Under the pieces are notes generated by a model. The model made no database searches, had not been told where the DNA came from, and saw nothing but the letters and a program-made list of their open reading frames with translations. 64,000 nucleotides of DNA from Caecibacter massiliensis (GTDB taxonomy: Bacteria; Bacillota; Negativicutes; Veillonellales; Megasphaeraceae): assembly GCA_900095875.1 (NCBI GenBank), contig LT608311.1, forward strand, positions 930,001-994,000, written 5' to 3'. Both the position numbers and the translations under genes were made by a program. Below, piece by piece: positions 2,963 through 49,563 of this stretch (its first letter is position 1; each line of letters starts with the position of its first letter).

Positions 2963-3258
2963 AAAAAAGGCCCCTGCTGCATGTCCTATGCAACAGGGGC
3001 GAAGTATCGCGGTACCACCCTGATATTATACTCAGTGTCTTACCAGACATTCCCTAACGCGGAATCACGTCTATGCCTCCTGTTTCTCTAGAAAAAAATT
3101 CGACATAGCTGCTCCCGGGCGAAGTCGGATATACGGATCATCTCCCGGCTCTCAGCAACCGCCGGTTCTCTGTCAGAAAATACCAATCATACCCTTTACC
3201 CAATCATAGCATTTTGTGGCATCTATTCTTTAAAATATATGCCTATAGGAAAGATTGA
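2963..3258 (-). promoter_or_regulatory. T-box leader, predicted phenylalanine (UUC) specifier
   Basis: The minus strand carries the T-box element AGGGTGGTACCGCG (3008-3021). It is followed by a GC-rich terminator hairpin (2969-3001) and six Ts. Upstream lie the AGAGAACC... and GCTGAGA distal Stem I elements (about 3150-3175). Folding Stem I by eye puts the specifier loop on GACTTCG, giving codon UUC (Phe) at 3121-3123 followed by a purine. The T-box UGGU would pair with a tRNA having discriminator base A, which suits tRNA-Phe. No gene follows. Confidence 0.8.
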
Positions 3259-46353: not shown

Positions 46354-47241
46354 ATGTATATTGATGACGCTGAAGGCATGGTATTTCGTCCCCCCAGCGA
46401 AGCCTATAGTTTCATATTGCGTGCCACCATCGGCTGTTCCCACAATACGTGCACATTCTGCCCGATGTATAAGGAATCGCGGTTCCGGATCCGTCCCCTG
46501 GAAGAAATCGACGGTATCATTGAACGCGGTGCCGCCGCTTACCCCTATGTGCGCCGTGTCTTTATCGCTGACGGCGACGCCCTGGTCCTGAAAACCAAAG
46601 ACCTGCTGCACATCATAAAAAAATGCTATGACCTGTTCCCCCGCCTGACCCGCGTCGGCGCCTATGCGACTCCGGCTGACATCGACCGCAAGACACCGGA
46701 AGAACTGACTGCACTTCACGAAGCAGGTCTTGGAATTCTCTATACGGGAATCGAAAGCGGCGACGATGCGGTCCTCACCCGGGTCCATAAGGGTACGACG
46801 GCGGAACTCACCGTGCGGGCCGGCCAGAAAGCGCTGGCTGCGGGGTTTAAATTATCTGCCATGATTCTTCTCGGCCTGGGTGGTCAGGAACGGACCCATG
46901 AACACGCCCTGCACACGGCGGAAGTCGTGTCTGCCATCAATCCCACCATGCTCAGCGCCCTGTCCCTGATCATTCCCGAATTCGTTCCCCTGTACAAGGA
47001 AGTGCAAGACGGCACCTTTACGCCTCTGACGGCCCGGGGATTTATCCGGGAACTGGACGAACTCCTGCGCCATACGGAAATGACAGAGTCCTGCATTTTC
47101 CGCAGCAATCACGTTTCCAATCTCTATCCCGTAGGCGGCACACTGCCCAAAGACAAAGAAGCCATGCTCCGGGCATTAGAGCAGATGATGCCCCATATGG
47201 ACGATACGACACCCATTCTGGGCGACGTAACTCATTTCTAA
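46354..47241 (+). CDS. Radical SAM protein
   Basis: Radical SAM enzyme of 295 residues, with the [4Fe-4S]/SAM site in GCSHNTCTFCPMY (a C-x4-C-x2-C variant, about residues 28-40, typical of the Elp3-like subgroup of small anaerobe proteins). YTGIESGDD and LLGLGGQE mark the barrel. ATG 46354 is preferred because AAAGG abuts the earlier ATG. The reaction is unknown; such proteins are often annotated only by superfamily. Confidence 0.8.
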   Translation: MYIDDAEGMVFRPPSEAYSFILRATIGCSHNTCTFCPMYKESRFRIRPLEEIDGIIERGAAAYPYVRRVFIADGDALVLKTKDLLHIIKKCYDLFPRLTRVGAYATPADIDRKTPEELTALHEAGLGILYTGIESGDDAVLTRVHKGTTAELTVRAGQKALAAGFKLSAMILLGLGGQERTHEHALHTAEVVSAINPTMLSALSLIIPEFVPLYKEVQDGTFTPLTARGFIRELDELLRHTEMTESCIFRSNHVSNLYPVGGTLPKDKEAMLRALEQMMPHMDDTTPILGDVTHF

Positions 47242-47248
47242 AACTAAA

Positions 47249-47305
47249 AAAACAGAGGATGCTGCACTACAGGCTTTTAAAGCCATTCTGCGCATCCTCT
47301 GTTTT
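47249..47305. terminator. Bidirectional terminator
   Basis: AAAACAGAGGATG pairs with CATCCTCTGTTTT, with an inner GGCTTTTAAAGCC stem, between convergent genes. Confidence 0.85.
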
Positions 47306-47324
47306 ACTTTATTGTATTCTCTTT

Positions 47325-48317
47325 TTAATGCTGTGCCGGAACGGTGATGGTTTCGCGCTGTTTTTCTGCATCCCGGGCTTCTATCTTATCCATGTTGCGG
47401 GCAAAAATCCCGGCCAGGATGGACCCGGTGACCTGATGGATAGCAGCACCGACAGCGGCCGGAATGGCTACAGCCGGAGCGAAGAAGACGGAAACAAGGG
47501 AAATAGCCAGGGCATCGTTCTGCATGCCAACTTCCAGCGTGACGGAATGCTGCTGTTTCTTACCCAGTCCTAATTTACCTGTAACGAAGTAGCCAATGAG
47601 GAAACCGCCCAGATTATGGATGAGTACCATGAGGATAATGAAGAATCCCATTTCCAGGATTTTGACACCATTGATAGCAATAACGCCACCGACGATGACC
47701 AATACGCCAAAAGCAGAAACGAGTACCAGTACTTTCGACAAGGAAGCGACGTGCTTTTCACCCATGATGCGATGAACGATGAGTCCCAGAACCAAAGGAA
47801 CCAGAATAACTTTCATAACCGTCATGGCCATGGCAAAGAAAGAAACTTCAACCCACTGGCCAGCCAGTCCCCAGACGATGAAGGGCATCATGATGGGTGC
47901 CAGCAGAGTCGAACAGGTCGTAATGGATACGGACAGCGGTACATCGGCTTTCGCCAGGAAGCCCATGACGTTGGATGCTGTGCCGCTCGGACAGGACCCC
48001 AGCAGAATCATGCCGACAGCCATTTCCGGTGGCATCTGAAAAGCCATTACCAGTCCATAGGCCAGGAGCGGCATAATCGTGTAGTGAGCCGTGCAGCCGA
48101 TGAGGACTTCTTTTGGCCGCTGCAGGATGAGTCTGAAGTCTTTGGCATGCAGCGTCATCCCCATACCAAACATGATGACCCCCAGAAGCAATACCGTATG
48201 CGGTACGGCCCATAAAAATGCGCCCGGCATAAAGTATGCCCAGATAACGACAAGAAATACGATGTACGTCAGGTTCTTTCCGACAAAACCACTTAATTTC
48301 CCGATTAAATCCATCAT
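47325..48317 (-). CDS. BASS-family sodium symporter under T-box control
   Basis: Bile acid:sodium symporter (BASS) family protein of 330 residues with ten segments. The hallmark SCPSGTASNVMGFLAKAD (about 108-125) and the second sodium-site region EVGMQNDALA (about 260) are present. Bacterial and plastid BASS members carry pyruvate, pantothenate precursors or other 2-oxo acids. GGGGGG lies six bases before ATG 48317. A T-box leader with predicted valine specifier lies directly upstream, pointing to a substrate linked to valine supply, such as a branched-chain 2-oxo acid. The substrate is inference. Confidence 0.85.
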   Translation of the reverse strand: MMDLIGKLSGFVGKNLTYIVFLVVIWAYFMPGAFLWAVPHTVLLLGVIMFGMGMTLHAKDFRLILQRPKEVLIGCTAHYTIMPLLAYGLVMAFQMPPEMAVGMILLGSCPSGTASNVMGFLAKADVPLSVSITTCSTLLAPIMMPFIVWGLAGQWVEVSFFAMAMTVMKVILVPLVLGLIVHRIMGEKHVASLSKVLVLVSAFGVLVIVGGVIAINGVKILEMGFFIILMVLIHNLGGFLIGYFVTGKLGLGKKQQHSVTLEVGMQNDALAISLVSVFFAPAVAIPAAVGAAIHQVTGSILAGIFARNMDKIEARDAEKQRETITVPAQH

Positions 48318-48412
48318 ATGAATCCCCCCGATGATGCGTGTACGAATAATAAATATAAATAAAATATACCCCAGTAACAAATCCTGATGACTATCCCGCT
48401 TTTTGTGTAAAA

Positions 48413-48699
48413 AAACGCTTTGTCTCTTTTAAAAGAGACAAAGCGTTCAGCTCTGCGGTACCACTCTTATTGTCGTAACGACCCCTCTGTGCATCTCCGG
48501 AACCCCCGTTCCTTGCAATGCCTGACCCGCTAACGGTGGTCTTCCGGCTGCGTCTACTTGCAAAGCGTTCGGGCAGCTGCTCATGGGTGACTTCACGGTA
48601 TCTGCCCATCCCGTCTCTCAGCCTGCAACGGTTCTCTGTCATGGGGGATTACCCTTACTACTCCCAGTCAACACGGTGTCTGTGGATTTGTTGATGCTT
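48413..48699 (-). promoter_or_regulatory. T-box leader, predicted valine (GUC) specifier
   Basis: The minus strand shows Stem I with GGGAGTAGTAA on the 5' side and AGAGAACCG...GCTGAGAGACGG distally. The 3' specifier loop reads GTGAAGTCACCC, giving GUC (Val) at 48589-48591 followed by A. The T-box element AGTGGTACCGC follows at about 48453-48466, then a terminator (CGCTTTGTCTCTTTT with AAAAGAGACAAAGCG, seven Ts, about 48412-48447). UGGU matches a tRNA with discriminator A, as for tRNA-Val. The codon call is by hand folding. Confidence 0.85.
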
Positions 48700-48728
48700 A
48701 TTATACGCACGGTGTATGAGAAAGTCAA
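48700..48728 (-). promoter_or_regulatory. Promoter of the BASS T-box leader
   Basis: Minus-strand TTGACT (48723-48728), 17-base spacer, TATAAT (48700-48705). Confidence 0.85.
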
Positions 48729-48957
48729 GAAGTTTTTTTCTTCGCATCTTAAAAAAAACATGCATTAAAACGTTAAACTTAAAATTATTAACATTGATTT
48801 TCCAGGCATTCTCATTAATAATTAACGCAATCTATCTATAGAATTTTAGAATTGAAGTGCATTCTTTCTCGCTATTTCAAATTTCATTTTGTCTTACTTT
48901 TGCTGAAAATTGTAGTATAATGTAGAAAAATCCCGTAAATCAAGGAGGTTCTGCCTT

Positions 48958-49563
48958 ATGAAAAAGATATGTCTCTTCCTCATTCTGCTCGTTACCATAG
49001 CCGGTGCATCCTTTGCTGCAGACACGGCCGGATCATCCCCTGCCACTACTCCGCCCGTCACGGCCAGCCAGCCGGCAGATGATACCGCACGGTTCGACAA
49101 CGAACGGACAATCCTTCTGGTCCGTACGACCCAGGGCGGTTACCCTGCCCATTTCATGGAACAGCGTCTGCGCCAGCCCTTCCGCCTTCCCTACTGGGAC
49201 CGCCAGTATGCAGCGGAAACGATTTCCCCGGAAGACATAACAGAAGATACGATGCAAAGACTGGCCGCATCCTACAAAGCCGATGTCGTCCTCGTCCCGG
49301 TCGTACGGACCTGGATCTGGCGGCAGTATCACGCATATCGCGGCTGGTATGATGACGACGAATTTTTCACAGAATGCTGGTATGACCTGCGGGTATATGC
49401 CTACAATGTCAAAGATCAGACACTGAAGAGTTATAGTTCCCGCGGCTCAGAACGGGATGAATCCTCTATCCTCAATGATCCCAATGAAATTCTGGGACGG
49501 GCCATGGACCAGATTCTGGAAAAATTGCCATATAAACGCATCCCGACGGACATTGAACGGTAA
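48958..49563 (+). CDS. Secreted hypothetical protein
   Basis: Not recognised. The 201 residues begin with a clear signal peptide (cut near ASFAA-DTA, about residue 21), then a Pro/Thr/Ser-rich linker and a domain from about 45 with RTILLVRTTQGG, VVLVPVVRTWIWRQY and a Trp/Tyr-rich acidic patch (RGWYDDDEFF). The alternating hydrophobic strands and the conserved-looking YNVKDQTLKSYSSRGSE segment suggest a periplasmic or outer-membrane-associated beta protein. AAGGAGG is eight bases before the ATG. It is convergent with aspA. Confidence 0.75.
   Translation: MKKICLFLILLVTIAGASFAADTAGSSPATTPPVTASQPADDTARFDNERTILLVRTTQGGYPAHFMEQRLRQPFRLPYWDRQYAAETISPEDITEDTMQRLAASYKADVVLVPVVRTWIWRQYHAYRGWYDDDEFFTECWYDLRVYAYNVKDQTLKSYSSRGSERDESSILNDPNEILGRAMDQILEKLPYKRIPTDIER

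Follow-up and report, generated by a model that had tools for sequence, protein, structure and literature searches.

Many bacterial BASS proteins are annotated as bile-acid carriers without any idea of their cargo, and the locus described here raises the question of what such a protein may carry when its gene stands behind a T-box leader. The locus lies in the window, the whole stretch of 64,000 nucleotides from Caecibacter massiliensis that was analysed, and the genome of the window (G000) measures 2.65 Mb. A first-pass annotation had read the leader as a valine T-box and had expected the carrier to supply valine or a precursor of it; its coordinates, 47325-48728, were correct and span the BASS stop codon to the -35 box. 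All elements of the transcript lie on the minus strand. The putative promoter (TTGACT - 17 nt - TATAAT, 48700-48728), proposed from a consensus match only (11 of 12 positions), was the best of five promoter-like sites within 47200-49000. It is followed by the T-box leader (48431-48680), which overlaps an intrinsic terminator (48413-48448), and by the BASS gene (47325-48317), which encodes 330 aa from an ATG at 48317, with GGGGGG located 6 nt ahead of it. Beyond the stop codon, an inverted repeat read directly from the sequence, AAACAGAGGATG...CATCCTCTGTTT (47250-47304), separates the gene from a convergent radical-SAM gene. The repeat is likely to act as a two-way terminator, so that the BASS transcript is probably monocistronic.

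The leader is a T-box of the RF00230 class, matched by cmscan over the full length of the model (positions 1-219 of 219) with 95.6 bits against a gathering threshold of 93 and an E value of 1e-19 for the 64-kb window. When 30 T-boxes, this leader included, were aligned, a 12-pair Stem I structure had 94.6% of its cells paired and double-sided changes at all 12 pairs; its covariation was 0.834, compared with 0.298 in shuffles (0 of 500 as high) and less than 0.2 when the structure was slid along the alignment, where 38-49% of cells were paired. Toward the 3' end, the antiterminator (48433-48468) has a 7-nt bulge, UGGUACC, and folds alone at -10.1 kcal/mol in RNAfold. The terminator has a 16-bp stem followed by a U run, the stretch holding both elements folds at -24.2 kcal/mol, and in RNAfold of the window sequence the two structures are mutually exclusive. 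By analogy with the known T-box mechanism, the predicted switch would respond to uncharged tRNA. Folded freely and by itself, the leader has an unremarkable energy (z -1.87; 8 of 200 shuffles fold equally well), as might be expected of a decayed relic, but the promoter, antiterminator and terminator are all intact.

Twenty-four full-length T-boxes were found in the genome of the window, together with one 39-nt fragment (27 bits) of the 3' half of a second T-box just downstream of the serC Ser T-box (L023/L025). One of them is also in the window, at 2992-3216 on the minus strand (96.3 bits), and reads UUC (Phe) with UGGU; it is followed by an unusually long gap of 432 nt without an obvious gene and then by the next gene of at least 100 aa, at 1573-2559, which by our own reading encodes an MBL-fold-like protein. 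Elsewhere in the same genome, a Tyr (UAC) T-box precedes an amidohydrolase (TIGR01891) and a membrane protein (L002), and a Cys (UGC) T-box precedes a URO-D-family gene (L019). Two Trp (UGG) T-boxes, those of trpS (L006) and of an ABC/ECF-like gene (L020), both named by our own reading, carry UGGU although tRNA-Trp ends in GCCA, and the trpE T-box has the matching UGGC.

The amino acid to which the BASS leader would respond depends on its specifier. Read from the 3' side, in the register fixed by a four-pair helix, the codon at 48591-48589 is GUC (Val), and the cmscan alignment and the T-box alignment gave the same reading. The helix itself covaries: 95.7% of cells were paired and all four pairs were changed on both sides in the 30 T-boxes. 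Compared with the Rfam consensus, one nucleotide is missing from the loop that joins the GAA motif to the specifier, a shortening shared with the T-boxes of leuA (CUC) and cysK (UGC) in the same genome; a count from the GAA side would give UCA (Ser) instead. Such a misreading, or a leader that is a decayed relic, is extremely improbable. The valS leader of the same genome has a near-identical GUCACCCGUGAGC where the BASS leader has GUCACCCAUGAGC, and, counting this one, eight of the clade's leaders read GUC. Furthermore, the UGGU of the T-box bulge (48460-48463) is predicted to pair with the ACCA end of tRNA-Val, whereas it mismatches the GCCA of tRNA-Ser and the CCCA of tRNA-His, which argues against the frame-shifted readings UCA (Ser) and CAC (His). 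In the Ser T-boxes that we read, the contact is UGGC. In the genome of the window, all tRNA-Val, tRNA-Ile and tRNA-Leu species found end in ACCA, and a tRNA-Val(GAC) with discriminator A73 is present.

The same reading rule was applied to the other T-boxes of the window's genome and fitted the gene in 14 of the 14 cases named by NCBIfam at the thresholds used (ilvC AUC, ilvC GUC, leuA CUC, metY AUG, thrS ACC, metA AUG, cysK UGC, valS GUC, pheS UUC, trpE UGG, cysS UGC, ileS AUC, serC UCC and glyQ GGC), a control in which trpE, ileS and metA were named at scores under the curated cut-off, for trpE and ileS because the locus stops short of the end of the gene, and from which trpS (L006), unnamed at these thresholds, is left out. 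Outside this control, our own covariance model misread one T-box by one base, that of Dielma trpS (L188, named by our own reading), as GGG for UGG. A different specifier had been named as a possible refutation of the first-pass annotation; GUC with its UGGU contact stands.

The downstream gene had been called a BASS carrier, and this was borne out. The protein matches PF01758 (SBF domain) with 141 bits at a cut-off of 24.3, and its AlphaFold model (pLDDT 89.9) was superposed by VIA-align on ASBT_NM from Neisseria meningitidis (8oyf) over 308 residues with Z 47.7 and an rmsd of 1.4, compared with Z 23-30 for NTCP chains and at most 19 for the next families. ASBT_NM (3zux, 8oyf, 8oyg) is also the best solved relative (E 2.5e-73), with 42% identity. 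At 235.6 bits the protein misses the cut-off of NCBIfam TIGR00841 (326.3), and it is therefore filed under the Pfam and fold family, outside that subfamily; we take BASS to be TC 2.A.28. The second-best NCBIfam match is the PanS equivalog NF047939, a ketopantoate/pantoate transporter of the same family (E 3e-65), with 220.7 bits below a cut-off of 400. Equivalents of Glu260, Gln264, Asn115 and Ser114 are kept, and that of Gln77 is His in 16 of 17 Megasphaera/Acidaminococcus proteins; these five are presumably the Na+-binding residues. By analogy with BASS relatives, the carrier may be coupled to Na+.

Whether the leader says something about the carrier depends on how far the two have stayed together. 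A search with the window protein found three BASS genes in its own genome: the one studied here, a paralogue with 70% identity (G000:C2:848523-849512) under an AUC (Ile) T-box, and a third with 34% identity and without a T-box. The two ilvC copies of this genome carry AUC and GUC T-boxes, the same pair as the two BASS genes. Among 61 genomes of the order, 15 BASS places were found at E<=1e-80, all in the genus of the window and in 10 of its 15 genomes; a T-box lies upstream of 14, and the 15th, with 44% identity, is without one. In two genomes of the Megasphaera genus, neighbouring BASS genes differ in their T-boxes, with GUC in front of one gene and AUC in front of the other (G018:C28:114406-119062 and G022:C13:110-3015).

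We then turned to named genomes, taking the best 80 of 478 BASS relatives, among which the closest to the window protein belong to Megasphaera species. Because the Pectinatus leaders escaped a strict regular-expression search for the T-box core, a covariance model was built and all 80 loci were rescanned. A T-box lies directly upstream in 20 of these 80 loci (15 AUC, 4 GUC and 1 CUC), the carriers being Megasphaera, Acidaminococcus, Phascolarctobacterium, two uncultured relatives, three Pectinatus and Dielma fastidiosa. Among the 60 loci without a T-box, three (L094, L112 and L132) have less than 500 nt of upstream sequence. In a class-wide search of 250 genomes, 39 gave a match at E 1e-90, and T-boxes were found at 6 of 6 loci of the Phascolarctobacterium genus, 5 of 5 of the Acidaminococcus genus and the single g89 locus, with 0 in the 8 other loci examined; these 8 do not include another 9 loci that belong to the family of the T-box-free ones. 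From the class search, together with a survey of the T-boxes in four genomes, came four more leaders and a second, distinct BASS gene of Acidaminococcus massiliensis (L166, AUC). In that species, a Leu (CUG) T-box also precedes a MatC_N/CitMHS carboxylate carrier (L170), a second anion carrier under a branched-chain T-box.

In total, 32 distinct BASS-linked T-boxes from Megasphaera, Acidaminococcus, Phascolarctobacterium, Pectinatus and Dielma were read, of which 23 are AUC, 8 GUC and 1 CUC, and none in the surveyed loci falls outside Ile, Val and Leu. The loci had been picked by protein similarity and not by specifier, except L166, which was met through its T-box. Same-genome repeats, judged by coordinates or by sequence identity between loci, were removed before counting (L059, L062, L063, L065, L066, L067, L070, L209, L211-L214, L223, L227 and L228). 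One of the 23 AUC leaders, L210 from the Phascolarctobacterium genus (G214, ~1170-1400), was read by eye: it is without the upper Stem I, the distal half with the AGAGA bulge and apical loop being missing, and keeps the AUC and the antiterminator. Either Stem I is naturally short here or the assembly is wrong.

Orthologues under T-boxes of unrelated amino acids had been named as a finding that would speak against the branched-chain link, and none appeared among these 32 leaders. As the specifiers are only AUC, GUC and CUC, with AUC the commonest, the gene is, by this evidence, tied to branched-chain metabolism and not to valine as such, and the link appears much stronger than the first-pass annotation had it. 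The valine part of that annotation did not survive: paralogues within one genome, tandem and dispersed, carry different specifiers, the specifier has switched at least three times, and a valine-specific carrier was rejected in view of this turnover among Ile, Val and Leu specifiers. Such switching suggests a cargo that would help against shortage of any branched-chain amino acid. On a quick protein tree of 89 rows with several long branches and 28 of the T-box leaders, where the numbers of changes are rough, three changes are required to explain where T-boxes occur and three for the specifier (AUC/GUC/CUC). A segment resembling GGAAACGCGUAUGUUGGUACGUUG is shared by L166, the Pectinatus leaders and the ilvC leader L001; at this place the leaders of the main clade, among them that of Dielma, have another segment. 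This pattern fits separate captures of T-boxes by BASS genes, and ilvC leaders were probably the source.

T-box control of amino-acid transporters (LIVCS BrnQ, ABC, APC, NSS, MFS, NhaC and DAACS) is known, with the same RNA class and the same anatomy of tRNA-dependent antitermination. In Wels 2008, Ile, Val and Leu T-boxes are described on multi-specific carriers, and it is argued that the specifier need not equal the cargo; for BrnQ carriers the paper describes how single amino acids came to control a system of multiple specificities. A T-box thus informs on the timing of expression and not on the substrate, and the switching of specifiers seen here makes the same point. BASS is not among the seven transporter families of that survey, and BASS relatives carry organic anions, not amino acids. 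We found no report of T-box control of a BASS gene in the literature searched, and a mention in Vitreschak 2008 or Gutierrez-Preciado 2009 is possible; the word 'bile' is absent from the main text of Wels 2008, of the 2013 regulon paper and of the TBDB paper.

The substrate pocket points in more than one direction. According to Becker 2023, the main chain of Thr112 and Ala113 binds the carboxylate of pantoate in ASBT_NM, Asn265 and Gly267 bind its 2-hydroxyl, and His294 and Asn295 the other (4-)hydroxyl. In our alignment, whose residue numbers exceed by one those of the protein counted from the Met at 48317, the equivalents of Thr112, Ala113, Asn265 and His294 are kept in the clade, and the window protein shares the carboxylate-binding helix N-termini with ASBT_NM. 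A PanS-like carrier of pantoate or ketopantoate, placed under branched-chain T-boxes since pantoate derives from 2-oxoisovalerate, would agree with the kept Thr112, Asn265 and His294, with the pantoate bound by the closest solved relative (Becker 2023) and with PanS as second-best NCBIfam match. We consider it quite improbable, because the PanS cut-off is missed, because pantoate needs no Ile or Leu tRNA signal while 24 of the 32 leaders read Ile or Leu, and because in the main T-box clade 23 of 23 proteins have Gln in place of Asn295, a position that is Asn in 60 of 62 T-box-free BASS proteins. Regulation by branched-chain tRNAs is a further difference from PanS. The change to Gln suits a cargo without a 4-hydroxyl, such as 2-oxoisovalerate.

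A second difference from ASBT_NM is seen in Megasphaera and Acidaminococcus, where the equivalent of Gly267 is Ala and that of Ser266, Ser in 61 of 62 T-box-free BASS proteins, is Asp in 17 of 17. This Asp is near the 2-position of the substrate and could suit an amino group, and it counts in favour of the main rival explanation, namely that the clade imports valine, isoleucine and leucine themselves, like the T-box-controlled LIVCS and ABC carriers elsewhere; most known T-box transporters are amino-acid carriers (Wels 2008). The Asp is, however, absent in Phascolarctobacterium, Dielma and Pectinatus, and the relatives named in Becker 2023 carry 2-keto acids, pyruvate, glycolate and pantoate, anions without an amino group. 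The need for a further amino-acid importer is also in doubt: of 11 genomes searched, all 11 have BrnQ and 10 a LivJ-type binding protein, and the LivJ-type gene of the window's genome has its own AUC T-box. These carriers keep the amino-acid route open, yet make another amino-acid carrier less needed. All in all, we regard amino-acid import as unlikely. By its residues, the pocket appears to fit a branched 2-substituted carboxylate and does not discriminate between oxo, hydroxy and amino forms.

The metabolic context of the carriers speaks for an acid precursor. Leucine synthesis starts from 2-oxoisovalerate. The genome of the window itself has ilvC and ilvD; ilvC was absent from 6 of 22 genomes searched and ilvD from 5 of 10, and the five genomes without both (RUG072, three Phascolarctobacterium and Dielma) all have a BASS gene under an Ile T-box. 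The six T-box-negative Selenomonas genomes, which are few, all have ilvC. The clearest case is Phascolarctobacterium ET69, whose assembly twin is rated 100% complete: leuA (739 bits, cut-off 455) and leuC (678, cut-off 611) are both under CUC T-boxes, leuB is present (504, cut-off 353), ilvC and ilvD are absent, and an Ile-T-box BASS gene is present. Only valS, ileS and BASS are under Val or Ile T-boxes there, as judged from the 10 readable of its 11 T-boxes, with valS and ileS named by our own reading of their N-termini. In Dielma, leuB and ilvE_II were found. A leucine pathway without ilvC and ilvD, as in ET69 and Dielma, needs 2-oxoisovalerate from elsewhere and not from pyruvate; the sources must be import, imported valine or carboxylation of isobutyryl-CoA. 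In RUG072 (twin rated 99% complete) no leuB was found, and thus no pathway there asks for 2-oxoisovalerate.

Isobutyrate, isovalerate and 2-methylbutyrate are used by rumen bacteria, and a carrier of such branched short-chain fatty acids, followed by reductive carboxylation, would free genomes lacking ilvC and ilvD from outside 2-oxoisovalerate. Short-chain fatty acids, on the other hand, largely cross membranes without a carrier. Import of 2-oxobutyrate or pyruvate belongs to the same explanation, and a plant relative, BASS2, carries pyruvate (Becker 2023), but both would be useless without ilvC and ilvD, the latter being absent from 5 of 10 genomes. To these other feeders we give as small a chance as to pantoate.

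Two simpler arguments were tried and given up. The BASS protein as the sole branched-chain importer of the ilv-less genomes was rejected, since BrnQ and LivJ-type proteins are present. The presence or absence of IlvE was considered as a discriminator between uptake of amino acids and of 2-oxo acids and is not decisive, because no PF01063 class IV (IlvE-type) aminotransferase was found in the genome of the window despite ilvC, ilvD and leuA, so that the branched-chain transaminase of this lineage must belong to another class. Phascolarctobacterium likewise has no IlvE-type aminotransferase, only a D-amino-acid-transaminase-like one, and this counts for amino-acid import.

Considering the leader, its specifier, the terminator and antiterminator, the BASS fold, the conserved link and its restriction to Ile, Val and Leu, all of which are read from sequence, we infer induction by tRNA, inward transport, Na+ coupling and a cargo as follows. 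Uncharged tRNA-Val(GAC) would be sensed through GUC and UGGU, and antitermination would then allow transcription into the single BASS gene, whose product would be one of a clade under Ile, Val or Leu T-boxes in Negativicutes and Dielma. The carrier would import 2-oxoisovalerate, 2-oxo-3-methylvalerate and 2-oxoisocaproate, perhaps with the matching 2-hydroxy acids; the 2-oxo acids would be transaminated, or 2-oxoisovalerate fed into leucine synthesis. Import is the direction favoured, as an exporter induced by starvation would be counter-productive. Import of branched-chain 2-oxo or 2-hydroxy acids by a Na+-type carrier that uncharged branched-chain tRNAs induce is the best single reading, and we consider it about evenly balanced between right and wrong. 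Its main argument is leucine synthesis without ilvC and ilvD in genomes with an Ile-T-box BASS gene, with ET69 as the best support.

Several observations argue against a 2-oxo-acid cargo. Plant 2-oxo-acid BASS carriers exist and are suggested to have Gln at 112 and Ser at 265 (Becker 2023), whereas Thr and Asn are kept in the T-box clade. The Asp266 of Megasphaera and Acidaminococcus could bind an amino group, and Pectinatus and L166 have an unchanged pantoate-type pocket and still an Ile T-box. 2-Oxoisovalerate could be obtained from valine imported by BrnQ and LivJ-type systems, RUG072 is without leuB, and the genome of the window has ilvC and ilvD and is without an IlvE-type aminotransferase.

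A wider proposal, that the Negativicutes clade is a dedicated tRNA-regulated 2-oxo-acid importer that BASS genes acquired branched-chain T-boxes in about three independent captures, and that the carrier allowed gut bacteria such as Phascolarctobacterium to lose ilvC and ilvD, is tentative and rather doubtful. For one BASS clade, a leader that is kept over genera and in every case read here gives Ile, Val or Leu points independently, at the level of sequence, to branched-chain metabolism, and a genome that has the carrier and makes leucine although ilvC and ilvD are absent allows this to be tested. If the proposal is true, leucine would be made from 2-oxoisovalerate scavenged from neighbours, and cross-feeding in gut and rumen communities would proceed in keto acids, not amino acids.
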